Positions 9,171 to 49,543 of a DNA stretch of 64,000 nucleotides are shown here, piece after piece. The stretch covers positions 222,081 through 286,080 of the forward strand of contig JAPLKG010000017.1 of the NCBI GenBank assembly GCA_026388185.1. The letters run 5' to 3'. The position numbers were made by a program, and so were the translations under genes. Source of the stretch: Candidatus Eisenbacteria bacterium (GTDB lineage: Bacteria > Eisenbacteria > RBG-16-71-46 > JAFGJU01). How positions within the stretch are numbered: the stretch's first letter is position 1; each line of letters starts with the position of its first letter. The notes beneath the pieces were generated by a model, which saw only the letters and a program-made list of their open reading frames with translations, made no database searches and had not been told where the DNA came from.

Positions 9171-9635
9171 TCAAAGGTACTTGGCCTCGGCCTGCTTGAG
9201 AACCTCGAGGAACTCTTGCGCACCGGCGCACTTTTTCAAGTGCTCTCGGACACTCTCTTCTTTCAGCAGGCGCGAAATGTTGGCAAGCGCCCGGACGTGA
9301 GGCCCCCTGAGCGCCTCCGGAGACACGAGAAGTATGAACAGCCTCACGGCCTCCCCATCCACGGACTGGAACTCTATGCCCTTGGGCGAGAGACCGCACG
9401 AAGCCACCAATGAATCTATCGATTTCGCCTTGCCGTGTGGGATGGCCACCCCGAAGCCGATGCCGGTCGACATCATGGCCTCCCGCTCCGTAACCTGCTT
9501 GAGAATCTCTCCTCCGCTCTTCAGTCCGTGGGCCTTCTCGAGAAGGCTCACCAATTCCTCTATCACCTCGTCCTTGGTGGTGGACTTGAGCGAAGTAGAG
9601 ATGGCTTTCTCGTTGAGGAGTTCCGATAATTTCAT
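9171..9635 (-). CDS. PTS EIIA type-2 (PtsN-like) protein
   Basis: 154 residues covering a single PTS EIIA domain of the fructose/nitrogen-regulatory type. The phosphorylatable histidine is H67 in GVAIPHGKA. The protein has no transporter domain, and no EIIB/EIIC, HPr or EI gene is nearby, so a regulatory (PtsN-like) role is more likely than sugar uptake. It sits 65 nt before nuoA in the same direction and could be the first gene of that operon. A TTGACA lies upstream, but no convincing -10 box was found. Compare the second EIIA domain fused to KdpD at 39523-41217. Confidence 0.85.
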   Translation of the reverse strand: MKLSELLNEKAISTSLKSTTKDEVIEELVSLLEKAHGLKSGGEILKQVTEREAMMSTGIGFGVAIPHGKAKSIDSLVASCGLSPKGIEFQSVDGEAVRLFILLVSPEALRGPHVRALANISRLLKEESVREHLKKCAGAQEFLEVLKQAEAKYL

Positions 9636-9744: not shown

Positions 9745-11868
9745 TCAATCGGAAAATGGGGCGCCGGGGATAGAGACCTTGTCGAACGCGCGTTCAGTCG
9801 TGACGCGTTGCCTGCTGACCGAATCTTCCACTTCGAGGACAAGATTGTAGCTGCCGTCTCTCAGTGCGGAGATGTCTATTGACAGCCGCTCCGCGCTCGA
9901 AGATCGCTCCACCTCTCTGTCGAAGCTACTCACAATGTAGTGCTCTCCGGATCCGAATAGGGAAACAAGAAACCCCCACAGTGAGGCGTTCCTTCTGCTG
10001 GATGGTAGTATGGAGTATTTCGTGGTGAAGCGGTATCGCCCATCCCGCCCCTGGGCAAGATTATACACTTCGTAGTAGAGCCTGAGCGGCGCCGGCGAGA
10101 CGTAAGTTCCGGAGGGATTGGGGAGCACGTCCTTGTCCTTGCCGATACCGGTCTCGACGCGCCTCTCTGGAAGCAGGTAGGCCAGCTCTATGTCGCTGAC
10201 GCCGAGATCGTGTGACGAGAAAGACGGCACGACGACCTTCTCTTTTGTGAGCCCGAGCGTTCCGGACACGGAGTCCTTCACTGCGACGGCCACGGTGTAT
10301 TCGCCCGGTGCAAGCTTGAAGTCAAGCTCGCGGATGAGCACCGCCGCCGCACCGCGCTCCGCGTACGTGCGCGCACCCTCCAGAGTCGTGCCGACGCGGG
10401 CAAGTTCCTTCCACAGGCTATCGAAGACTACCGCGTCAAACGACACCAGTCTCCAGTTTCCTTTTGTGACATTCTCGAGCGGAATTCCGACGTAAAGCTC
10501 TTCCCGGACACACGAGTCTCCGAGGAAGCCGGCGCTGGCAAAGAGATTCTGAAAGACGTGCGCGTGGTAGTTGTGGTCGTAGTAGCTGGGGCTATAATAG
10601 GCCCTCGCGTCAATGGCGGAAGGAACAGGCACGGCGGGAAACTCAAAATACTGGAACTCGCCGCTCAGAGCGTAATCCACGAAGGCCACCGCAAACGGAC
10701 CGTTGTCATCAAAGTAATACCATATCAATGTCGGCAGAGACGCGCCCGCTCCCGTTCCACTCGACGTGAAGGTGTATTCTCTGCTCTTCGGAAAGCCGTA
10801 CCTTATGAGCGCCTCGCCGGGCCCGGTCTGCCAGCCCGGAGTACCTGTTTTCTCTATCGTGAACAGGGCCTTGCTGAGTCCCACGCGTCGCCAGTGCTCG
10901 AGAACTCGTTCGTTCAGTTCGGTGGTCGGGGTCGGGTCCAACCCCTTCCAGAAAGTGCGAACGAACTGCTCTTTCTGCGTTCGAGTGAAGTGCTTAAGCT
11001 TGATTCTCTGCTTGGGAGTTATGAGCAGACTGATATCATCGAAAGTCTCTTTGGTCGGACTATCACAAACCGAAAAGAACTTCTTCCAATCTTCGATCGA
11101 TCTCTCGTATTCACCCTTTTCGTGGTGTGCGATGGCGCTGAGCATGATTGCGTCCGGATCAGTCGGAAAACCCCTGAGCAGCCGCTCCAGAACAAACTGC
11201 ATACTGTCGGGTCTTTCTCTCTCCAGATATGCAAGAACGAGATGAGAGAGCGCCTCTTTGTTGGTGGTGTCCGTCTGCGCTGAACTCGTGAACTCGGCGA
11301 TCATGCGAGAGAGATCTCTTTGGTTGCGGTACCTCTTCCAGTCCCTTTGTACGATGAGGCCCAGCATGTAATGAGATTGACCATCTTCGTCGTCTGACTT
11401 GATCAGGGTTTCGTATTGAGATTTGGAGTGACTGAAGAACCCCTGCTCGAAATAGAGGGAAGCGAGTTCATGCCTGATGTCTCGTCGCTCCGGATAGTTC
11501 GAGACAAGTTTCACCAGTATCTGCGAAGCCTGCCTGCGGCCTTCGATGGTCTCCGTTGCCCGTGCGGCCCTCGCGTACAGGAGCGATCCTTCGATCCACA
11601 CCGGAAAATGAATCAGCACGGGCTTTAGTTCCGTGAGCGCCGACTCGTACTTCTTCTCTTGATAGAACCTCGACGCTCTTTGGTAGCGTGCCATGTAGTC
11701 GTGGCCCGGCGCGGTTGATGCACAACCGGAGATCGATAGGCAAACCGGAGCCAGCAGGGAAAGGGAAACGAGCAGACGAAGGAGGCGCCCCGGGGTAAGA
11801 TTCGCAAGACGCGGAATCCGGCGCGTGCCGAGGCGGGCGTCGCTGCCGGGAGCTGATTCGTTTCTCAT
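9745..11868 (-). CDS. GWxTD-domain lipoprotein with TPR-like repeats
   Basis: 707 residues. The lipoprotein signal has its lipobox cysteine at C49 (LSISGC). Residues 55-280 are TPR-like helical repeats. The GWxTD region follows: FWKGLDPTPTTELNE at 306-320 and GWQTGPGEALIRYGFP at 345-360, where the usual D of the name-giving motif is G. The C-terminal half is beta-rich. GWxTD proteins are frequent in Acidobacteria and Eisenbacteria-like genomes and have no settled function. The start overlaps the tonB stop by 4 nt, so the two form one operon and may belong to one outer-membrane system (inference). Confidence 0.88.
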   Translation of the reverse strand: MRNESAPGSDARLGTRRIPRLANLTPGRLLRLLVSLSLLAPVCLSISGCASTAPGHDYMARYQRASRFYQEKKYESALTELKPVLIHFPVWIEGSLLYARAARATETIEGRRQASQILVKLVSNYPERRDIRHELASLYFEQGFFSHSKSQYETLIKSDDEDGQSHYMLGLIVQRDWKRYRNQRDLSRMIAEFTSSAQTDTTNKEALSHLVLAYLERERPDSMQFVLERLLRGFPTDPDAIMLSAIAHHEKGEYERSIEDWKKFFSVCDSPTKETFDDISLLITPKQRIKLKHFTRTQKEQFVRTFWKGLDPTPTTELNERVLEHWRRVGLSKALFTIEKTGTPGWQTGPGEALIRYGFPKSREYTFTSSGTGAGASLPTLIWYYFDDNGPFAVAFVDYALSGEFQYFEFPAVPVPSAIDARAYYSPSYYDHNYHAHVFQNLFASAGFLGDSCVREELYVGIPLENVTKGNWRLVSFDAVVFDSLWKELARVGTTLEGARTYAERGAAAVLIRELDFKLAPGEYTVAVAVKDSVSGTLGLTKEKVVVPSFSSHDLGVSDIELAYLLPERRVETGIGKDKDVLPNPSGTYVSPAPLRLYYEVYNLAQGRDGRYRFTTKYSILPSSRRNASLWGFLVSLFGSGEHYIVSSFDREVERSSSAERLSIDISALRDGSYNLVLEVEDSVSRQRVTTERAFDKVSIPGAPFSD

Positions 11869-39522: not shown

Positions 39523-41217
39523 CTACGCGTTTGCGGCTTCCCAATCGCGGATCACGGTTATCGCGTCCTCGGAAGTATGGGCGAGCCTCAGGCTGTGAAG
39601 AAGATGTCTGCTTTGAGCCGCCCGACTGGAAACGCCCAAGACTTGAACTTGCGCCTCGGGGGTCTCGGCCGGAGAGAGTATCAGGAACACTACGTCTACG
39701 GGCTTCTCCGTGACCACGTCTGAAACGCCCTTTTTCGTCAATCCGAGTGCCACCACCGGAGTGCTCAGGCCTTTCACGCGCACGTGCGGGAAGGCGACAC
39801 CTTCGTTGAGAAAAGTCGAACCCTGCTCTTCACGTTTCAATACGTCGGCAAACAGTACCCCGGCGTCTCCCGTGCCGGCGTCTTTCCAGACACTGTCCCA
39901 GACACTCCCCGCGAGCGTTCTGAGAACCACTTCTTTCGTGACAGGTTGATCCCAGATGACGACGCGTCGGGGCGACAGGAGCCCGGTCAGTGTCGACTGT
40001 TTCCTCGCCTGCGCCTCGGCCGCGGGTGCTCTCTTCTCGGGCGTCATTCCTTCCGGAACGTCGATCGCGGGCTGGCCGCCGGGTGCTTCCTCTTCACGGG
40101 TATCAAGAACAATGACAGTGACTCCTCTTGCGCCCTTCATAAGATTCCCGGCCACGTCCCTGTTCTTGCCCAGTCTTCTCCAGAAGGGCTTGGGAATCGG
40201 CCTCCCTACAATGATGTGGCCGACGCGATATTCCTTGGCGAACCTGAGAACGGTGTCTGCGACGTCCTCTCCCTTGTACGTGAAAACCATCGCGCCCAGC
40301 TGTTTCGCCAGAGTCAACGTGTCGGAGAGAAGGCGCTGGGTCCGAGCATCGATGGCGGTGGCGGCCTCTGAGGGGGTCTGAACGTAGACCGCGTACCAAT
40401 TTCGGTTCAGTTTTCCCGCGAGACGCGAAGCATAGCGCAGCAGTTTCTCGGAGTTCGGACCGCGCGAACTCAGACAGACCATCACCTGGTCCGGAGTGGC
40501 GGCACTTCCGTCTTCCAGGATCTCACGCCTTCTCAAATCAATCTGTGAGGCGAGTTCTCTCAGTGTGAGTTCGCGGAGTTTCTCCAGATTCGAAATCTTG
40601 AAGAAATTGACTAGAGCGGCCTCGATACGCTCCTGAGGATAGATTTTCCCCGCCGCCAAACGCTTCTGCAAATCCTCGGTGCTCAGATCCACGTCAACGA
40701 TCTGGTCGGCTTCGGCCAGCACGGAATCGGGAAGGCGCTCGCGCACCTTCACTCCCACTGCCTTCTCTACGGTGTCGTAAAGGCTTTCCAGATGCTGGAC
40801 GTTCATTGTCGTGACGACGTGTATTCCGGCAGCGAGAACGTCCTGGACGTCCTCGTATCTCTTGGTGTTCCTGCCACCGGGAACGTTGGTGTGAGCCAGT
40901 TCATCGATGAGAGCCACTTGAGGCTTGCGGGCCAGGATTGCATCCGCGTCCATCTCTTCCACCGGAACGCCGCGATACTCTTGGCTGCGTCTTGGAACGA
41001 TCTCCAGCCCCTCGGCAAGCTTGGCAATCTCGACTCGACCGTGTGTTTCGAGTAACCCTATCACCACGTCGATCCCTTCCTGCTTGAGTCGATGACCCTC
41101 CTGGAGCATCTGATAGGTCTTTCCCACTCCTGCACAATACCCCAGGTAAACCTTCAGTCGTCCGCGCTGGGAACTGCGGATCATTCTGAGAAATACGTCT
41201 GCCCTGTTCTCAACCAT
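39523..41217 (-). CDS. KdpD sensor half (KdpD-N and USP) fused to a PTS EIIA domain
   Basis: 564 residues, no membrane helices and no kinase. Residues 20-230 are the KdpD N-terminal domain with the P-loop GYCAGVGKT (26-34), LIDELAHTNVPGG and TTMNVQHLESLYD. Residues 244-372 are a universal-stress-type domain like that of KdpD (IIVGRPIPKPFW). After a linker, residues 412-560 are a type-2 PTS EIIA domain with the phospho-histidine H478 in GVAFPHVRVKG. The four helices and the kinase of KdpD are missing. It is the last gene of the kdp operon. In E. coli the free EIIA-Ntr protein binds KdpD; here the two are one chain. It probably senses potassium or second messengers for the separate kinase at 45909 (inference). 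Confidence 0.92.
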   Translation of the reverse strand: MVENRADVFLRMIRSSQRGRLKVYLGYCAGVGKTYQMLQEGHRLKQEGIDVVIGLLETHGRVEIAKLAEGLEIVPRRSQEYRGVPVEEMDADAILARKPQVALIDELAHTNVPGGRNTKRYEDVQDVLAAGIHVVTTMNVQHLESLYDTVEKAVGVKVRERLPDSVLAEADQIVDVDLSTEDLQKRLAAGKIYPQERIEAALVNFFKISNLEKLRELTLRELASQIDLRRREILEDGSAATPDQVMVCLSSRGPNSEKLLRYASRLAGKLNRNWYAVYVQTPSEAATAIDARTQRLLSDTLTLAKQLGAMVFTYKGEDVADTVLRFAKEYRVGHIIVGRPIPKPFWRRLGKNRDVAGNLMKGARGVTVIVLDTREEEAPGGQPAIDVPEGMTPEKRAPAAEAQARKQSTLTGLLSPRRVVIWDQPVTKEVVLRTLAGSVWDSVWKDAGTGDAGVLFADVLKREEQGSTFLNEGVAFPHVRVKGLSTPVVALGLTKKGVSDVVTEKPVDVVFLILSPAETPEAQVQVLGVSSRAAQSRHLLHSLRLAHTSEDAITVIRDWEAANA

Positions 41218-41356: not shown

Positions 41357-41947
41357 CTATTTCGACGCCCCATCCAGGGCCAGGTTCAGCATGAGAACGT
41401 TCACTCGGGGTTCGCCGAGGATTCCGAGATCACGACCTTGGATGTGCGCTTCGATCTGCTCGCGAATCGTTCTCTCGCTCAATCGCCGGGCTCTCGCCAC
41501 ACGGGGTGCCTGCAGCAAGGCATTCCTCAGACTGATGTGAGGATCCAGGCCGCTGGCCGATGAGGTCACGGCGTCGGCGGGCACCAGAATATCAGAAGAA
41601 AGACTGTTTTCCCTTCGATATTCCACGACGCGTCGGCCGACGGCGTCAATCAGCTTTCCTGACGTGGGGCCAAGATTGCTGCCGCCGGAACTGCAGGCGT
41701 CGTATCCCCGGCCTGCTGCCGAGGGGCGAGGGTGAAAGTACTTACCATCGGTAAACTCTTGCCCGATCAGGCTTGACCCCAGGATCGTTCCGCCACGCGC
41801 GACGAACGAACCGTTCGCCCTGGCCGGGAAGAGCCCCTGAGCAACAATCCATATTGACAGCGGATACACCCCGCACAAAATCGTGGCCAAACATAACGTT
41901 GCCACGAGTGAGATACGGATTTCTGTGATTAGATTCTTCACGGACAC
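41357..41947 (-). CDS. kdpC: potassium-transporting ATPase subunit C
   Basis: 196 residues with one N-terminal membrane helix (about 11-33) and a periplasmic domain. Signature segments are GSSLIGQEFTDGKYFHPRPS, LVPADAVTSSASGLDPHIS and VARARRLSERTIREQIEAHI, ending VNVLMLNLALDG. It stabilises the KdpFABC complex. GTG start 15 nt behind kdpB. A 139-nt gap follows before the KdpD-EIIA gene; it holds several copies of a CATTCCCGA-like word of unclear meaning. Confidence 0.96.
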   Translation of the reverse strand: MSVKNLITEIRISLVATLCLATILCGVYPLSIWIVAQGLFPARANGSFVARGGTILGSSLIGQEFTDGKYFHPRPSAAGRGYDACSSGGSNLGPTSGKLIDAVGRRVVEYRRENSLSSDILVPADAVTSSASGLDPHISLRNALLQAPRVARARRLSERTIREQIEAHIQGRDLGILGEPRVNVLMLNLALDGASK

Positions 41948-41962: not shown

Positions 41963-43984
41963 CTACACCAGATGAAGCGCATTGACAATCGTGTCTATCA
42001 GCTTGATGCCCGGGAACGGCACGATCAGGCCGCCAAGACCGTAAATAAAGAGATTGCGTCTGAGTAACGCGGACGCACCCAGGGGCCTGAATTTCACCCC
42101 TCGCAGAGCCAAGGGAACCAGCGCAAGGATAATGAGCGCGTTGAAGATGACGGCGCTCAGGATGGCACTCGCAGGCGAACGGAGTCCCATGATATTCAGA
42201 GGGGCGATGCCTGGGAACACGCTTACCAGCATTGCAGGGATGATGGCGAAGTACTTGGCCACGTCGTTGGCAATGCTGAACGTTGTGAGCGCCCCTCTCG
42301 TGATGAGCATCTGCTTGCCGACCTCCACAACTTCTATCAGCTTGGTGGGACTGGAGTCGAGGTCCACCATGTTTCCTGCTTCCTTGGCCGCCTGTGTTCC
42401 CGTGTTCATGGCCACTCCGACGTCGGCCTGGGCGAGGGCCGGCGCGTCGTTTGTGCCGTCACCGGTCATGGCCACAAGGTGACCGGCCGCCTGCTCCTTT
42501 CGAATCAGCGCCAGCTTGTCCTCAGGTTTCGCCTCCGCGATGAAATCATCCACGCCTGCTTCTCTCGCTATCGCTGCCGCCGTCAGCCGATTGTCGCCGG
42601 TTATCATCACGGTTTTGATACCCATCGCCCTGAATCTCTCAAAACGATCCTTGAGCCCTCCCTTCACAATGTCCTTCAGATGAACGGCGCCCAGAACCTT
42701 GGCTTCGTCGGCGACCAACAACGGCGTTCCGCCCGAAAATGAGATTGAATCCACCGCGTCGTGGACCTCGACGGGAAAATCGGTCCCGACGAAGTCTCGT
42801 ATTGCGTCGGGCGCGCCTTTTCGGATGTGCCTGCCGTCAAAGTCCACCCCGCTCATCCTCGTCTGCGCGGAGAAAGCGATGAATCTGGCGTGCGGCATCT
42901 CCGACATTGAGCGCCCTCTGAGACCATATTTCTTCGCCAGAACAACGATGCTTCTGCCTTCTGGCGTCTCGTCGGCCAAGGATGCAAGTTGCGCCGCACT
43001 TGCCAGCTCCTCGACCTTCACTCCCGGCGCCGGGAGAAACTCTGCTGCCTGACGATCTCCCAGCGTGATCGTGCCCGTTTTGTCCAAGAGGAGAACGTCC
43101 ACGTCTCCCGCCGCTTCAACGGCGCGGCCGCTCATGGCCAGCACGTTCTTCTGAACCATGCGGTCGATCCCCGCGATCCCGATGGCGCTGAGCAGACCAC
43201 CGATCGTGGTGGGGATGAGGCACACCAGCAATGCCACCAATACTGTGATGGAAAAAGGCGTGCCCGAGTAAAGCCCGAAGGGTTTGAGGGTGACGATGAC
43301 GACGAGGAAAATGATCGTCAGCGCCGAGAGAAGAATGGTCAGGGCGATTTCGTTCGGCGTCTTCTGACGTCGTGCACCTTCGACCAGACTGATCATGCGG
43401 TCCAAAAAACTCTCGCCGGGGTTCGCCGTGACGCGGACCTTGATCCGGTCGGACAGAACGCGCGTGCCGCCCGTGACTGCACTCCGGTCGCCGCCCGCCT
43501 CACGAATGACGGGAGCGGATTCACCCGTTATGGCCGACTCGTCCACGGTGGCCAGACCTTCGATGACTTCACCGTCGGCGGGTATGAGCTCGCCTGCCGA
43601 AACAATGACGAGATCGTTTTTTCGCAGCCGCTCGGCCTGCGCTCTCTCAACCGTGCCGTCGGTCCTCAAACGGTTTGCCACAGTCTGAGTGCGCGTCCGC
43701 CGGAGGGCCCTGGCCTGGGCCTTCCCCCTTCCCTCGGCCATGGCTTCCGCGAAGTTGGCAAAGAGGACCGTGAACCACAGCCAGATAGTCACTTGTGCGA
43801 CAAAGCCGAACGGCTCGTTTCGTGACCTGAAGAGAAGCCCGAGGGTAGTGATGGCGGCTCCCACTTCCGTCACGAAAATGACCGGGTTCTTGAGCAGCCA
43901 GACCGGGTTCAGTTTTTTGCACGCATCCACGATGGCCTGCCCAACTATTTGGTGGTCAAAGAAAGGAAGAGCTTTGACTGCCAA
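41963..43984 (-). CDS. kdpB: potassium-transporting ATPase subunit B (P-type ATPase)
   Basis: 673 residues, the ATP-hydrolysing subunit. The phosphorylated aspartate is D301 in [10 protein letters not shown]; the actuator loop TGES is at 153-156; the hinge is [20 protein letters not shown] followed by the Kdp-specific [20 protein letters not shown]. No damage seen. It lies 27 nt behind kdpA. Confidence 0.97.
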
Positions 43985-44011: not shown

Positions 44012-45727
44012 TCAGTAGAGCGCGCCTGATCCCGTCATTAGAAAATGCTCGACTACCGGGCCGAGGGCGAGAACAGGCAAGAAGGTGAGCGCTCCGACGA
44101 TCAGGACCGTACCTACCAGCACGACGGTGAACGTCAAGCCCCACACTGGGAAGCTGCCTCCGGTTGCTGCAATCAGCTTCTTTCTCCCCAGGCTTCCGGC
44201 CAGACCCAACACCGGGACGATCATGGCGAAACGTCCGAGAAGCATGGCCAGCCCCAGGGTTGTGTTGTACCAACAAGTGTTGCCGCTCAAACCGGCGAAG
44301 GCGCTCCCGTTGTTTCCGGTGGTCGACGAGTACGCATAGAGCATTTCGGCTAGACCGTGTGGCCCGGTGTTGTTCAGGCCGGCAATGCCCCACCGACTTG
44401 CGGCGGCCCATGCCGCGAAACCCAGGATACTGAAGATCAATATCAGCACGGTGAGAGCGGCGAGCTTGACGTCGCGAGCCTCGATCTTCTTACCCAGGTA
44501 CTCCGGTGTTCGCCCGACCATGAGCCCCGTCAGGAACACGGCGAGCACCACAAAGACGAGCATTCCATAGAGTCCGGAGCCGACTCCCCCGAAAACCACC
44601 TCACCAAGTTGGATGTTAAACAGCGGGATCATCCCACCCAACGGCGTGAAGGAATCATGCATCGCGTTGACCGCTCCACACGAGGCGTCCGTGGTGATGG
44701 TGGCGAACAGGGCGGAGTTGAAAACCCCGAACCGAACTTCCTTCCCTTCCATGTTTCCGTCAGCGGGATTTACCCCAAGCGCGTGCAGTCTGGGATTGCC
44801 CGCGCTCTCGGCCCACCAACAGACCAGCAAGGCTGAGAGAAAAAGAAACAACATGGCACCCCACACGGCCCAACCATGTTTCTGATTTCTTACCGTTCGC
44901 CCAAGATAGTAGGTGAGGCCGCTCGGGATGAGAAAGATGGAGAGCATCTGTACGAAGTTCGACAGAGGGGTCGGGTTCTCGTAAGGGTGTGAGGCGTTCG
45001 CGTTGAAAAAACCGCCTCCGTTCGTTCCCAGCATCTTGATCGCCACTTGCGACGCGACAGGACCCTGGGGGACGAGTTGGGTTGACGATTCGACGAGTTC
45101 TGCCCCGGCATAGGGCTTAAAGTTCTGGATCACACCTTGCGATACCAGGAAGACGGCCAACACAACACAAATCGGAAGTAGCAGGTAGAGATTCACGCGC
45201 ACGACATCGACCCAGAAATTCCCGATGGTCTTCGCCGAATGCCGGGCGATGCCGCGCACGAACGCCGCAGCCACGACGATGCCCACGGCCGCCGAAACGA
45301 AGTTGTGGAAGACGAGACTCACCATCTGCGAGAAGTAGGACAGGGTGGACTCACCCGCGTAGTTCTGCCAATTAGTGTTGGTAGTGAAGCTGACCGCCGT
45401 ATTGAACGCCAAGTCTTCCTTGACGGGGCCGAAACCCTGCGGGTTGAGCGGCAGGAGATGCTGAAGTCTGAGGATGGCGTACGTGAACAGTAGCCCGATC
45501 AGACTGAATGCAAGCAGAGACAGAGTGTACTGCTTCCAATCCTGCTCCTTTTTCGAGTCCACACCGAAGAGGCGGTACAACGATCGCTCGACCGGCCCCA
45601 GGACCGGATCAAGAAGGGTCTTTCCCTCGGCGTCCAGGACACGAACCAAGTGGAGGCCCATCGGTTTGGTCAAGGCCAGAAGGACCAGGACGTAGATAGT
45701 CAGTTGAATCCATCCAATGAGGTCCAT
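44012..45727 (-). CDS. kdpA: potassium-transporting ATPase subunit A (channel-like)
   Basis: 571 residues, the potassium-binding, channel-like subunit. Four pore loops are recognisable, among them FNTAVSFTTNTNWQNY, GTNGGGFFNANASHPYENPT and TDASCGAVNAMHDSFTPLGG. It takes up potassium with high affinity, driven by KdpB. It lies 14 nt behind kdpF. Confidence 0.97.
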   Translation of the reverse strand: MDLIGWIQLTIYVLVLLALTKPMGLHLVRVLDAEGKTLLDPVLGPVERSLYRLFGVDSKKEQDWKQYTLSLLAFSLIGLLFTYAILRLQHLLPLNPQGFGPVKEDLAFNTAVSFTTNTNWQNYAGESTLSYFSQMVSLVFHNFVSAAVGIVVAAAFVRGIARHSAKTIGNFWVDVVRVNLYLLLPICVVLAVFLVSQGVIQNFKPYAGAELVESSTQLVPQGPVASQVAIKMLGTNGGGFFNANASHPYENPTPLSNFVQMLSIFLIPSGLTYYLGRTVRNQKHGWAVWGAMLFLFLSALLVCWWAESAGNPRLHALGVNPADGNMEGKEVRFGVFNSALFATITTDASCGAVNAMHDSFTPLGGMIPLFNIQLGEVVFGGVGSGLYGMLVFVVLAVFLTGLMVGRTPEYLGKKIEARDVKLAALTVLILIFSILGFAAWAAASRWGIAGLNNTGPHGLAEMLYAYSSTTGNNGSAFAGLSGNTCWYNTTLGLAMLLGRFAMIVPVLGLAGSLGRKKLIAATGGSFPVWGLTFTVVLVGTVLIVGALTFLPVLALGPVVEHFLMTGSGALY

Positions 45728-45741
45728 GGACCCTTTCCCCG

Positions 45742-45825
45742 TCAGAATACCTCGGGTCGGAGGATCGTGATGAGCAAGTACGCGATCAAGACAAATCCTA
45801 CGAGGATCCCCAGAAAGTCAGCCAT
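45742..45825 (-). CDS. kdpF: KdpF small subunit (27 residues)
   Basis: A 27-residue hydrophobic peptide that begins MADFLGILVGFVLIAYLLIT and ends LRPEVF, matching KdpF in size, position and the LRPE(x)F end. It is a single membrane helix that stabilises KdpABC. The ATG lies 3 nt behind the stop of another 27-residue peptide gene. Confidence 0.88.
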   Translation of the reverse strand: MADFLGILVGFVLIAYLLITILRPEVF

Positions 45826-45828
45826 TGC

Positions 45829-45912
45829 TCAAAGCCTTTCACACGCGCGCGCGTAAAGAAAGCAGAGGCCGAAGAAAACGATGGAGATCAAGATGTAAGC
45901 AAGATCCGTCAA
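45829..45912 (-). CDS. 27-residue membrane peptide upstream of kdpF
   Basis: Reads (M)TDLAYILISIVFFGLCFLY and ends ARACERL: one membrane helix with a charged tail. The TTG start overlaps the kinase stop and has AAGGAGAG 6 nt upstream. Similar short frames with a Y-x2-A/G-C-E/D-R-L ending occur before kdpF/kdpA in other bacteria to my knowledge, but they are usually not annotated. The conserved-looking tail, tight spacing and good SD argue for a real gene. It may be a second accessory helix of the Kdp complex or a link to the sensor kinase. Confidence 0.72.
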   Translation of the reverse strand: MTDLAYILISIVFFGLCFLYARACERL

Positions 45913-47753
45913 GATTGACTCTCCTTCTCCGGGGTTCGGTCGGCCCTTCTGAGCGTGAAAGTGAAGGTGGTTCCTCTTCCTTCCCGGCTCTCAACGCCGA
46001 CCACGCCGCCGTGAGCCTTCACGATTTCCTTAACGATGGCAAGTCCCAGCCCCGCTCCCGTCTCCGTTCCTTGGTCCGGGACGCGGAAGAACTGTTCGAA
46101 CACTCTCGGGAGATACTTGCTTGGGATGCCCTTGCCCGTATCGGAAATCGAGAATCGGACCGTCTTCTCCTCGGCCGTCGCAGAAACGCTAACGCGGCCC
46201 CCGGCCGGCGTGAACTTGAGCGCGTTCGAGACCAGGTTGCCAAATACGTGACCGATCCGTGTCGTGTCAACCCAGACGTCGGGCAAGTCGTCCGGCACCT
46301 CGACGCTCATAGTCACTCCCTGGTCCTGGGCTGCCCGATGGAACGGGTCCAGAGCCTCCGACACCATCGCGCGAGAGGAGATCGCACGAAGTTCTAGTTG
46401 AGCTCTCCCGGATTCAATGCGACTGATGTCCAGTAGATTGCTGAGAATACCGTGGAGTCGATTGCTGTCCTCGCCGGCCGCCAACAGAAGCTCTACCTGC
46501 TTCTCCGTGAGAGGTCCCACTTTTTCCTCGAGCAGAAGGTGGATGGCCATGCGAATGGAAGTGAGCGGAGTCTTGAGCTGATGCGATACCGTCGAGATTA
46601 CTCCCTTCCTCAACTCATCCTGTTGCCGGAGCTGCGTGACGTCTTGAAGCGTCAGTACGATTCCAATGGGTAACCTTTCGCTGTCCAGGATGGGCACCGC
46701 TTGCGGACGAAAGTATCTCTCTTCTCCGTTCACAAAATGCTGAACAAATCTTCGATCGTTCTGTTTGGACGTCGCGGCGCCGCCCTTGAGGACGTCGTTG
46801 TACAGATCTACGATCCATCTCAATGACGAGTCTGATATTTGTGAGCCGGGTCGTAGCCCGAAAACGGTCTTCGCCGTCTCAGTCGCCAGCTCCACGCTCC
46901 CGTGCATGTCAATTGCGGCAATCGCCTCGGGTAGACTGTCAAACGCTTGTTGCGTGGCCCGCTGGATCCGAACCAGTCTGGCTTGATCGGAGCGGCGAAA
47001 TTCGCGGAGACTGGCCGCCATCGCGTTGAAAGCTTCGGAAAGGTGTCCGATCTCGTCTCGAGAAGTGCTTTGTACAACCAGATCCAGATTCCCGCGCCTG
47101 ATGTCGTCCGCGGATTCTATGAGGCGATTTATCGGGCCGAGAATCCATCTTCCGGCAAAGATCATGAATCCCACGGCAACGATTGTGCCAATCAAAAGAT
47201 AGAGATACATTCGCTGCCGGGCGGCGGCGGCGCTCGTGCGAGCTATCTCGTTCGCGTCGTTCATGTTTTGTTGATTGAGTTGAAGGATCTCGTCCGCCGT
47301 GTTCTTGATCTGGTCAAATAGCGGGAGGAAAGAGGTAAAGTAGGAGGCTCGCCTGGCGGCCAGCGGGATCTTTGGATCCAGCACGCCGTCTAGCGTCCTC
47401 TGGTACTGGCTAAAGAGCTGCTGAAGACGAGCCGCCCGCTCGCCTTCTCCAGGGACAGTGATGTTGCCCAGTTCGATCTCGAGCTCCTTCTCGAAAGCCA
47501 ATTCGTTCTCGCGGACAAGCTTCGTTCCCTCTTCCGTATAACCCATGAGTATGAACAGCACCCCGCTGTCGGTGCGTTCCAGGGCCTCCTTCATCTGCTG
47601 ACAAGCTACAACGCTCCGGTAGTTCTCGCGCAGGATGACGTCGATTGATCTTCCCAGCTTGGTGAGATGGAGGATACTCTGCGCGCCGATGACCAGGATG
47701 ATCACAAGCAGCCCGCCGAATCCCAGAGACAGCTTTTGACGGATTCCCAGCAT
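45909..47753 (-). CDS. HAMP-PAS sensor histidine kinase of the kdp locus
   Basis: 614 residues. Membrane helices near 8-28 and 185-207 flank an extracytoplasmic helical sensor. Then HAMP (about 205-260), PAS (about 270-375, AFDSLPEAIAAIDMHGSVEL), HisKA with H391 in SHQLKTPL, and HATPase_c with N box LVSNALKFTPAGG and DTGKGIPSKYLPRVFEQF. It is not the kinase half of KdpD (no KdpD helices), so the sensor pair was replaced. ATG with GTGGAG upstream, about 37 nt behind a sigma-54-type promoter. Its stop overlaps the start of the 27-residue peptide gene, so it is the first gene of the structural kdp operon. Confidence 0.92.
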   Translation of the reverse strand: MLGIRQKLSLGFGGLLVIILVIGAQSILHLTKLGRSIDVILRENYRSVVACQQMKEALERTDSGVLFILMGYTEEGTKLVRENELAFEKELEIELGNITVPGEGERAARLQQLFSQYQRTLDGVLDPKIPLAARRASYFTSFLPLFDQIKNTADEILQLNQQNMNDANEIARTSAAAARQRMYLYLLIGTIVAVGFMIFAGRWILGPINRLIESADDIRRGNLDLVVQSTSRDEIGHLSEAFNAMAASLREFRRSDQARLVRIQRATQQAFDSLPEAIAAIDMHGSVELATETAKTVFGLRPGSQISDSSLRWIVDLYNDVLKGGAATSKQNDRRFVQHFVNGEERYFRPQAVPILDSERLPIGIVLTLQDVTQLRQQDELRKGVISTVSHQLKTPLTSIRMAIHLLLEEKVGPLTEKQVELLLAAGEDSNRLHGILSNLLDISRIESGRAQLELRAISSRAMVSEALDPFHRAAQDQGVTMSVEVPDDLPDVWVDTTRIGHVFGNLVSNALKFTPAGGRVSVSATAEEKTVRFSISDTGKGIPSKYLPRVFEQFFRVPDQGTETGAGLGLAIVKEIVKAHGGVVGVESREGRGTTFTFTLRRADRTPEKESQS

Positions 47754-47800
47754 TATCGTTCTCCACTTTTCCAGTGCTCTGCTATTACCCTTTTCTATTA

Positions 47801-47816
47801 CGCAGGCAATGTGCCA
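47801..47816 (-). promoter_or_regulatory. sigma-54 (-24/-12) promoter of the kinase-kdp operon
   Basis: TGGCACATTGCCTGCG on the minus strand. The -24 half is perfect, GG and GC are exactly spaced, and the -12 half is CTGCG instead of TTGCA. The predicted start near 47790 is 37 nt before the kinase ATG. The gene just upstream encodes a sigma-54 activator, which supports the call. Confidence 0.7.
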
Positions 47817-47838
47817 ACAGATTTGTTACCTTAACCTG

Positions 47839-47892
47839 TTGAAAGATGGAGATGATTCCGGGCCGCGCAAGGGTAAACCTTAAATCTTTCAA
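47839..47892. promoter_or_regulatory. candidate activator site: 9-bp inverted repeat upstream of the kdp promoter
   Basis: TTGAAAGAT (47839-47847) and ATCTTTCAA (47884-47892) are exact reverse complements, centred about 75 bp upstream of the predicted start. The half-sites are 45 bp apart centre to centre, about four helical turns. Confidence 0.45.
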
Positions 47893-47987
47893 GAAACCGG
47901 AAGAAAACGCATTGAAGACTGCAAGGCGATATCAAGAAGGAAGTGAGATGACCGAGAAAAGAAGGAAGGGCGGAGGTGTGCGGACCT

Positions 47988-49316
47988 TCAGATTCCGTAC
48001 TTCTTGCGGCGACGCCAGAGGGTGGCCTGGTCGATTCCAAGAACATCTGCAGCTTCCTGCAGCGATTTCGTGGTGGCGAGAATTCGCCGTATGTGCTGTT
48101 CCTCGATTTTCTCGACCGTGACAGGATCGCCTATGCCGGGAGCCATTTCACTCGGGAGCAACGCCGTGGGAAGGCACTCGATGCCGACGCGATCGGTCTG
48201 ACAAAGAATGGCGGCCCGCTCGACAACGTTACTCAACTCCCTGATGTTTCCCGGCCAGCGATATTGCTTCAGCGCCTCCAGCGCCTCGTCAGTGAAGCCG
48301 GCGAAGGACCGGTGGCTGTTGCGACCACAGAATGCGAGTAGTCTCTCTGCAAGCGTGACGACATCATCCGGCCGTTCTCGCAACGGAGGAATCTCAATCT
48401 GAATGACGTTGAGCCGATAAAAGAGGTCTTCTCGAAACCGTCCTGCGGCCACCGCCTGCTCCAGGTCCACGTTCGTCGCTGCGATGATGCGCACGTCCGC
48501 TCGTCGCGTCGTGTAGTCGCCAACCCGCTCGTATTCTCTGTCCTGTGCGAAACGCAGAAGTTTCGGTTGCAGGGACAGAGGCAAATCGCCTATCTCATCC
48601 AAGAAGAGCGTGCCGTTATCACAGGCTGCGACGCGACCGGGATTATCACGAACGGCTCCAGTAAAGGCTCCCCTTACGTGCCCGAAAAGCTCGCTCTCCA
48701 AGAGCTCGGAAGAGAAGGATGGACACGAGACGATGCCCATGGGTTTCTCCGCGCGATTGCTCCACGCGTGAATGGCGCGCGCAAGCACGGTCTTACCCGT
48801 TCCGCTCTCGCCTCTGAGAAGAATTGTGGCGTCGGACGGCGCCACCTGCCGCGCCAGAGCCACGGCGTGCTGCATGGCCGAACCGGTACTCGAGAAGTCA
48901 ATCTCGGGACGCGTTCGACCGAGATCTTCCTGCAATGCGGCAACCCGTTCCTCCAGCACTCGCATTTCGTGCACCTTTTGAACGGCCAATTTGACCTGGG
49001 CAGGCGTGAAAGGTTTCGGAATGTAGTCCGTTGCCCCGCGGCGCATGGCTTCGACGGCAGTCTCGATGGAGGCGTAGGCAGTGATGACAATGATCTTGAG
49101 CCAAGGACACGTGGCCAGCAGAGCGGGAATCAGGTCAAGCCCGTCATCGGTCCCGAGTCGCAAATCCACAAACGCAAGTTCGAAAGCTCTTCTCGACGCC
49201 TCAGCCAGGGCGTCCTGAAAATTGCTGACGGCGATGACTTTGTGACCTTCCGTCTCGAGACACACCGACAAGGTCTTGCGAATGTTGATCTCGTCGTCCA
49301 CGACGAGAATGTTCAA
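47988..49316 (-). CDS. NtrC-family sigma-54 response regulator of the kdp locus
   Basis: 442 residues. Receiver domain 1-115 with phospho-acceptor D51 (FVDLRLGTDDGLD) and K101. AAA+ domain with Walker A GESGTGKT (169-176), GAFTGA loop (216-221) and DEIGDLPLSLQPKLL. Fis-type HTH at the end (LQEAADVLGIDQATLWRRRK). It activates sigma-54 polymerase. Its own promoter at 49376-49404 is of the sigma-70 type, so it can be made constitutively and then switch on the downstream kinase-kdp operon. The usual KdpE is an OmpR-type regulator without AAA+ domain. TTG start with a weak SD. Confidence 0.93.
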   Translation of the reverse strand: MNILVVDDEINIRKTLSVCLETEGHKVIAVSNFQDALAEASRRAFELAFVDLRLGTDDGLDLIPALLATCPWLKIIVITAYASIETAVEAMRRGATDYIPKPFTPAQVKLAVQKVHEMRVLEERVAALQEDLGRTRPEIDFSSTGSAMQHAVALARQVAPSDATILLRGESGTGKTVLARAIHAWSNRAEKPMGIVSCPSFSSELLESELFGHVRGAFTGAVRDNPGRVAACDNGTLFLDEIGDLPLSLQPKLLRFAQDREYERVGDYTTRRADVRIIAATNVDLEQAVAAGRFREDLFYRLNVIQIEIPPLRERPDDVVTLAERLLAFCGRNSHRSFAGFTDEALEALKQYRWPGNIRELSNVVERAAILCQTDRVGIECLPTALLPSEMAPGIGDPVTVEKIEEQHIRRILATTKSLQEAADVLGIDQATLWRRRKKYGI

Positions 49317-49375
49317 CGCTTGACCGGATGTGGTTTCGATTTGTGGCCTCCCTTCGCCTCCATGCCTTGAGCAAC

Positions 49376-49404
49376 AGCATACTAAATCGATGCTGGAAAA
49401 TCAA
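49376..49404 (-). promoter_or_regulatory. sigma-70-type promoter of the response regulator gene
   Basis: TTGATT, 17 bp, TATGCT on the minus strand; leader about 53 nt. A further palindrome, CATGAA-TTG-TTCATG, lies upstream at 49492-49506. Confidence 0.65.
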
Positions 49405-49543
49405 TTTGGGACGACGCCCGATTGTGTACCGCATTGCGGGGAAATTGACTCCCCGGGAATTTGCCGCTAACGTTGAACTTGAAGAGGCTCTCATGAATTG
49501 TTCATGCACCTTCCACCGCGATCTTCGCCGGACCGAATAGAAA

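Follow-up and report, generated by a model that had tools for sequence, protein, structure and literature searches.

A putative sigma-54-dependent potassium-limitation module at a kdp locus of Candidatus Eisenbacteria

Textbooks present KdpD/KdpE as the model for potassium control, with kdp classically under the OmpR-type regulator KdpE, and the usual associations of sigma-54 are nitrogen, motility and the cell exterior. How, then, is a kdpFABC operon controlled when the genes ahead of it encode an NtrC-type regulator and a separate kinase? We addressed this question in a stretch of 64,000 nucleotides from Candidatus Eisenbacteria bacterium (contig JAPLKG010000017.1; hereafter, the window), where all features described below lie on the minus strand. 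Our reading, to which we assign a probability of roughly 0.8 on comparative sequence evidence, is that a sigma-54-dependent module for potassium limitation, horizontally mobile, is represented here in its Kdp form.

The first gene (47988-49316) encodes a 442 aa response regulator of the NtrC/AtoC type, as judged from Pfam, individual residues and orthologue alignment. It carries everything expected of an NtrC-type sigma-54 enhancer-binding protein, i.e., a receiver with D51, an AAA+ domain (Sigma54_activat) with Walker A and GAFTGA at residues 216-221, and a Fis-type HTH (HTH_8), and it is 60-75% identical to 14 aligned orthologues, identities elsewhere reaching 86%. The second gene (45909-47753, ATG at 47753) encodes a 614 aa membrane histidine kinase, recognized by Pfam, predicted fold and conservation, with a periplasmic four-helix bundle (4HB), HAMP, PAS, HisKA (His391) and HATPase_c. 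This bears out the preliminary description of the locus, which had placed an NtrC-type regulator and a separate HAMP-PAS kinase ahead of kdpFABC. The kinase sensor is predicted with a pLDDT of 89 and is conserved across 21 sequences; its fold is a generic four-helix bundle, best matched by chemoreceptor ligand domains and other kinases, and no ligand site was identified in the kinase.

The pump genes follow. A 27-aa membrane peptide ending in ACERL (45829-45912), whose start overlaps the kinase stop codon, precedes KdpF in most kdp loci examined and matches no Pfam or NCBIfam model. Next come KdpF (27 aa, 45742-45825; Pfam Potass_KdpF, E 8.9e-4, just under the cut-off), KdpA (44012-45727; Pfam KdpA, E 4e-238), the P-type ATPase KdpB (41963-43984; DKTGT at 301 and TGES at 153, assigned by Pfam, motifs and tree) and KdpC (41357-41947; Pfam KdpC). 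In the KdpB tree, the window protein falls inside the cassette clade (100/97), apart from the KdpDE-type pumps of its class-mates, and this phylogeny indicates that the kdp cassette was acquired horizontally. The earlier notion of a kdp operon rewired to sigma-54 is thus kept as far as the control is concerned but not as the rewiring of a resident operon, since the pump seems to have been acquired along with the rest of the cassette.

The last gene of the operon (39523-41217; Pfam) encodes a kinase-less KdpD fused to EIIANtr: a KdpD domain with Walker A/B motifs (E 5e-91), a Usp-like region and a C-terminal PTS EIIA domain (PTS_EIIA_2, E 9e-14, 52.1 bits against a cut-off of 27) with His478. 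The EIIA domain matches PtsN structures, and its phosphoacceptor His478 is invariant in 13 sequences, the Walker motifs likewise showing no variation; the full-length prediction is of low confidence (mean pLDDT 62), while the EIIA part alone is good. The protein scores below the cut-offs of both the PtsN equivalog TIGR01419 (35 against 139) and KdpD_non_kinase NF038185 (352.8 bits over residues 7-368, against 550). In E. coli KdpD, W39 serves adenine binding; the equivalent position here is Tyr, a point against the reading favoured below. The fusion recurs in related loci, and our literature search, which covered few subscription journals, found no publication on a natural KdpD-EIIA fusion. 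KdpDs devoid of a histidine kinase are mostly found where KdpE is absent, and the N-terminal domain of KdpD alone phosphorylates KdpB (PMC11018627); KdpD is a binding partner of EIIANtr in several proteobacteria (PMC3665714, PMC13104625).

In the genome as a whole, the fusion is the sole KdpD-domain gene, leaving no KdpD histidine kinase, and no KdpE was found among the kdp neighbours, where the regulator is NtrC-type and not OmpR-type. The gene for sigma-54, rpoN, is present with all three domains, and 16/16 genomes of relatives have rpoN too. Both results agree with the preliminary proposal of a sigma-54 system replacing the conventional KdpDE pair.

Between the regulator and kinase genes lies a -24/-12 element, TGGCACATTGCCTGCG (47802-47817), which agrees with TGGCAC-N5-TTGC at 9/10 consensus positions and reads CTGC at -12. 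The element had been described as lying 37 nt before the kinase gene; the element stands, being conserved in relatives, while the actual distance to the ATG at 47753 is 48 nt. The figure of 37 nt matches the leader length from the predicted start site. A single match of this kind could not be taken at face value, given that the window contains 56 matches with up to two mismatches against 53 expected. We judge TGGCACATTGCCTGCG to be real because it is conserved in homologous gaps and not by its motif score: in 33 of 43 homologous regulator-kinase gaps a -24/-12 element lies no more than 200 nt from where the kinase gene starts, far above shuffled sequences (mean 1.57, maximum 5), so that the search for this gene order plus element in related genomes came out in favour of the original suggestion. 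With GG at -24, GC at -12, the expected spacing, this conservation and rpoN in the genome, the element has the sequence attributes of a sigma-54 promoter. A second candidate within the kinase gene (47190-47176), although a perfect match, was put down to chance, as it is coding and has no enhancer upstream.

The family also displays paired TTGCA-N3-TGCAA palindromes about 60-110 nt upstream of the -24/-12 element, which are probably the enhancers of the putative sigma-54 promoter. Such palindromes number 62 in regulator-kinase gaps against 1.98 expected (maximum 7). In the window, UAS1, TTGCAGTCTTCAA (47912-47924), follows the family consensus conserved in relatives with one mismatch and lies 108 nt 5′ of the -24 element, making it a probable enhancer; UAS2, TTGAAAGATTTAA (47880-47892), 32 nt from UAS1, is a degenerate palindrome, conserved in position and decayed in sequence. 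The window sites are therefore weaker than those of the family, with CTGC at -12, one mismatch in UAS1 and a degenerate UAS2. Across 1.1 Mb (the module loci together with the window) we count 47 composites of UAS and -24/-12, of which 45 stand ahead of the kinase, of KimA, of Kdp or of whichever gene comes first behind the regulator; 0.73 Mb of other loci and 0.9 Mb of simulated sequence contain none. A stricter form of the pattern has a single match in the 2.6 Mb genome, at the regulator-kinase gap.

No -24/-12 element was found upstream of the regulator gene in the window, which led us to reject sigma-54 autoregulation of the regulator. Instead, as had been suggested, a sigma-70-type promoter candidate is seen there, TTGATT-17-TATGCT (49382-49410, ± few nt), with its first hexamer about 88 nt 5′ of the TTG start. 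This site is weak (8/12, below the scanner threshold); one related locus (L104) has a counterpart, TTGATT-17-TATCCT, at the matching position.

We therefore favour the following scheme. The regulator would be kept at a low constant level by its own sigma-70-type promoter. The periplasmic four-helix domain of the kinase, possibly assisted by the KdpD-EIIANtr protein, would sense potassium shortage and the kinase would phosphorylate D51 of the regulator, which may then bind the TTGCA-N3-TGCAA sites in the gap that separates the regulator and kinase genes, its AAA+ domain opening sigma-54 polymerase at the -24/-12 element, 48 nt ahead of the kinase ATG. A single unit would thus yield the kinase, both peptides, KdpFABC and the fusion; this part of the preliminary description draws support from rpoN, the conserved promoter and enhancer, and the lack of a kinase-bearing KdpD. 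Nearly all relatives likewise have the kinase inside the controlled unit, and since it would be made within the unit, it may amplify its own signal. At ample potassium, the kinase-less KdpD, its Walker motifs kept, could apply a post-translational serine-phosphate brake to KdpB, perhaps further controlled by the phosphotransferase state of the EIIA domain.

The pair would control kdp here, but its associations are not limited to kdp. Orthologues of the regulator-kinase pair adjoin KimA, TrkAH/Ktr-type and Kup importers, in most cases together with this composite, and where genes are displaced or inserted (L030, L031, L120) the composite usually precedes the importer or the gene that directly follows the regulator. 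Because it precedes unrelated potassium importers in related genomes, the pair appears to be a portable module for control at low potassium. It is likely that one sigma-54 potassium-limitation module, comprising the NtrC-type regulator, the four-helix kinase, the paired TTGCA-N3-TGCAA enhancers and often the KdpD-EIIANtr fusion, has spread horizontally across phyla and become attached to Kdp, Trk, Ktr-type, Kup and KimA. Plasmids were rejected as its vehicle, a single distant match having turned up.

A less likely alternative is that the kinase has no potassium sensing of its own and that KdpD-EIIANtr, as the potassium/phosphotransferase sensor, influences the kinase through contact, much like EIIANtr with E. 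coli KdpD. The fusion accompanies the kinase even without kdpFABC (L026-L028, L030), a KdpD domain does so at two Kup loci (L128, L142), neither His478 nor the Walker motifs vary, and EIIANtr-KdpD contact is known (PMC3665714). However, the Trk and KimA loci L117, L137 and L139 keep regulator and kinase with no adjacent KdpD-EIIA, and the kinase owns a conserved periplasmic domain. It is unlikely that the pair answers some other stress (envelope, osmotic, or carbon/nitrogen status) with potassium import as one output. The generic sensor fold would allow it, two other regulators bind D. vulgaris kdp (PMC3333781), and non-potassium neighbours occur occasionally, namely, in place of a known potassium importer beside the pair, a CitMHS-family transporter (L143) and a TRAP transporter (L122/L123); most neighbours in distant hosts, however, import potassium and are of several kinds unrelated to one another, and potassium therefore fits best as the signal. 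Read-through from the sigma-70-type promoter, with the -24/-12 look-alike incidental, is very improbable: in its favour are the collinear gene order, a motif that by itself does not exceed chance and such a promoter site 5′ of the regulator, but -24/-12 and paired palindromes recur at fixed spacing in distant hosts, the composite pattern matches the genome once, at this gap, and it usually stays before the importer or first post-regulator gene when genes move.

Under the mobile-module reading, the regulator is conserved while the adjacent importer changes, and the potassium signal is therefore separated from the pump. Such loci form a natural comparison set for identifying the sensed signal, and the operator is specific enough for predicting potassium regulons in uncultured phyla. 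If the spread is true, the module would stand beside KdpDE and c-di-AMP control as their counterpart. The EIIANtr-KdpD contact in proteobacteria is debated; since the fusion unites both partners in one chain, it makes the PTS-potassium link directly testable.

Sigma-54 control of kdp is not new. In Desulfovibrio vulgaris, the GAFTGA regulator DVU3334 reportedly binds its own kdp operon and regulates it, and the system is listed in the sigma-54 regulome (Rajeev 2011, PMC3333781; Kazakov 2015, PMC4641369). Compared by published description, DVU3334-DVU3339.1 shares with our locus an NtrC-type regulator linked to its own kdpFABC and a histidine kinase split from KdpD, there a KdpD+UspA protein. 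It differs in that regulator and kinase genes apparently follow the pump, judging by locus numbers, whereas here they precede it, and in that no EIIA domain is mentioned and no other importer family is linked. What is unreported is the occurrence of the pairs beside KimA, TrkAH/Ktr-type and Kup importers, together with the recurring KdpD-EIIANtr fusion: the same literature search, with few subscription journals covered, found no publication that places Trk, Ktr, Kup or KimA under sigma-54, and potassium transport is absent from the Geobacter RpoN-regulon paper.

The split system of Deinococcus radiodurans and cyanobacteria likewise combines a truncated KdpD with a separate sensor kinase and a regulator, but its kinase is the C-terminal half of KdpD, and the accessible part of that account describes no sigma-54 promoter or EIIA domain (PMC5716572). 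With kinase-less KdpD (PMC11018627; NF038185) the fusion shares KdpD plus Usp, the retained Walker A/B and the lack of a KdpD kinase in the organism; unlike it, the fusion bears a C-terminal EIIANtr. That domain resembles PtsN in structure and in its phosphoacceptor His, although the two are fused here, whereas proteobacterial PtsN is a separate protein and makes its contact with KdpD in trans. The kinase recalls Pseudomonas KinB, whose NtrC-type partner is AlgB, in pairing a four-helix periplasmic sensor, HAMP and a PAS kinase with an NtrC-type regulator; KinB matches the sensor marginally (E 0.57 and 0.27; TM to target 0.76). Finally, as with E. coli KdpD/KdpE, the system would control kdpFABC, with a homologous pump and KdpD domain (KdpB 65% and KdpD domain 44% identical), but it would do so through an NtrC-type instead of an OmpR-type regulator, a separate kinase with another sensor and a predicted sigma-54 promoter.

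The whole gene cluster lies on the minus strand and is transcribed toward lower coordinates. A regulator (49316-47988; receiver, sigma-54 AAA+ domain with GAFTGA, Fis-type HTH) is followed by a kinase (47753-45909; four-helix sensor, HAMP, PAS, HisKA and HATPase domains), and these domain matches agree with the preliminary description, which had placed such a pair before kdp. The kinase sensor is predicted to form a four-helix bundle (pLDDT 89), for which structure comparison gave no significant match. Downstream are two 27-aa peptides, then KdpA, KdpB and KdpC and finally a 564-aa protein that combines a KdpD domain with a PTS EIIA domain and lacks a kinase domain. The second peptide matches KdpF slightly below the Pfam cut-off. 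The first, a membrane peptide ending in ACERL (45829-45912, minus strand), is without a match among Pfam or NCBIfam models; it stands ahead of KdpF at most of the kdp loci examined, canonical KdpDE-type operons from the window's class among them, and is absent from this position in E. coli.

The -24/-12 element (47817-47802, minus strand) is separated from the downstream kinase ATG by 48 nt, not by the 37 nt given before. Alone, such a motif carries little weight, since the window holds 56 matches against 53 expected (at most two mismatches). In the relatives, searched as had been proposed, most complete loci retain the arrangement regulator, kinase, KdpABC, KdpD-EIIA, and the element (at least 8 of 10 positions, at most 200 nt from the kinase start) occurs in 33 of 43 regulator-to-kinase gaps (dinucleotide shuffles: mean 1.57, maximum 5). 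The same gaps contain 62 TTGCA-N3-TGCAA palindromes when up to one mismatch is allowed (shuffles: mean 1.98, maximum 7), and their spacing to the -24/-12 element is kept, at about 86–110 nt for the first and 63–78 nt for the second. We counted 47 composites of palindrome (UAS, a probable enhancer; UAS1 and UAS2 in the window) and -24/-12 element in 1.1 Mb of module loci plus the window. Of these, 45 are upstream of the kinase, of KimA, of kdp or of the next gene downstream of the regulator; 0.73 Mb of other loci and 0.9 Mb of simulated sequence have none. Locus L019 has a second composite upstream of kdp, and L030 has divergent composites, one before the kinase and one before KimA. The window's copy is rather weak (one mismatch in UAS1, a degenerate UAS2, CTGC at -12); a somewhat stricter pattern matches the window's genome once, at the kdp site, and a reversed control pattern not at all.

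The window's genome encodes rpoN with all three domains (an rpoN gene is also present in 16 of 16 relatives' genomes tested), and the kinase-less fusion is its only KdpD-domain gene, in line with the claim that the pair stands in for KdpD/KdpE. No TrkH/KtrB gene was found in this genome; a KimA homologue lies elsewhere, without UAS or -24/-12 sites. The rpoN cluster (L147, contig C8, 2461-13906) comprises rpoN, radical SAM, hpf, HPr kinase and rapZ genes and continues with mannose-type EIIA/IIB/IIC, HPr and enzyme I; no EIIANtr gene was found within it. Since enzyme I and HPr are encoded close to rpoN, the EIIA domain of the fusion could be phosphorylated through a PTS chain. Three further EIIA-2 domains exist in the genome, one of them a stand-alone EIIANtr-like domain (window 9192-9623, minus strand).

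Relatives of the kinase were found, in a search of named genomes, in Syntrophaceae, other former Deltaproteobacteria, Acidobacteriota, Hydrogenedentota, Chlorobiaceae, Latescibacterota and Fibrobacteres; many of the named loci are from metagenome-assembled genomes. The kinase-sensor profile is present in 3/47 genomes of the window's phylum and 60/395 of the phylum to which a Syntrophaceae host belongs, from which two and 40 regions, respectively, were read. In L108 (1900-2685, minus strand) and L110 (4741-5169, minus strand), a shorter relative of the four-helix sensor region, lacking any kinase domain, is encoded between the regulator and kinase genes.

The same regulator family and kinase accompany KimA (L021, L117, L026-L028, L030; match to the solved structure of this potassium transporter, E 3e-66), KimA and kdp together (L022, L114, L120), TrkA and TrkH (L018, L102, L134, L137, L139) or Kup (L128, L142), and more distant kinases of the family adjoin Kup and Trk genes (L129, L130, L136, L141). 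Our "Ktr-type" label denotes right-sized TrkH/TrkA Pfam matches, which separate Trk and Ktr only loosely. Because the regulator tree requires 6 changes for the KimA context and 10 for the Kdp context, the module has exchanged importers repeatedly. Exceptions are L143 (5956-7359), where the composite, with its -24/-12 element, precedes a CitMHS-family transporter in place of a known potassium importer, and L122 and L123, with TRAP genes. In L139 a receiver-plus-TPR protein (9873-10589) lies between kinase and TrkA, and receiver-like genes follow the kinase at several other loci. A distant KdpABC (KdpA 38-45% identical) replaces the cassette pump in L020 (12110-17189) and L118 (8787-13009), with regulator, kinase and KdpD-EIIA retained; L020 has an additional gene after the pump, for a protein predicted to be secreted or in the outer membrane.

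Misassembly of the cassette is unlikely, since the contig spans 286 kb and the genome is 98% complete. Window KdpB shares about 80% identity or more with most cassette members from other phyla, against about 65-68% with its class-mates, and falls inside the cassette clade of the KdpB tree (support 100/97). Kdp loci of the class, where readable far enough, have a canonical KdpD kinase and mostly KdpE too. The simplest reading is that the whole cassette was acquired horizontally.

The C-terminal domain of the fusion matches PtsN structures (E about 1e-8), and both the phosphoacceptor His478 of this domain and the Walker motifs of the KdpD domain are invariant across 13 aligned proteins. Binding of EIIANtr to KdpD is known from several proteobacteria, and rhizobia carry ptsN2 within the kdpDE cluster (PMC3665714, PMC13104625); no description of a KdpD-EIIANtr fusion was found in the literature searched. 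The KdpD N-terminal domain on its own phosphorylates KdpB, and kinase-less KdpDs predominate where KdpE is missing (PMC11018627, 2024). Species of the module with kinase-less KdpD would indeed control transcription, via another two-component pair.

We infer all functions of the module from sequence. No account of the multi-importer module turned up in the literature searched, which covered few subscription journals. Sigma-54 control of kdp as such is already known from Desulfovibrio vulgaris, where the GAFTGA regulator DVU3334 controls its own kdp operon, with the kinase split from a KdpD+UspA protein (PMC3333781), and is included in the sigma-54 regulome (PMC4641369). Of the genomes those authors compared, only D. 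vulgaris Miyazaki and S. fumaroxidans had orthologues; the regulator-kinase family is much wider than it then seemed. Compared with the published description of the DVU3334 operon, the window operon differs in gene order, with the promoter placed in the regulator-kinase gap, and in its EIIA fusion.
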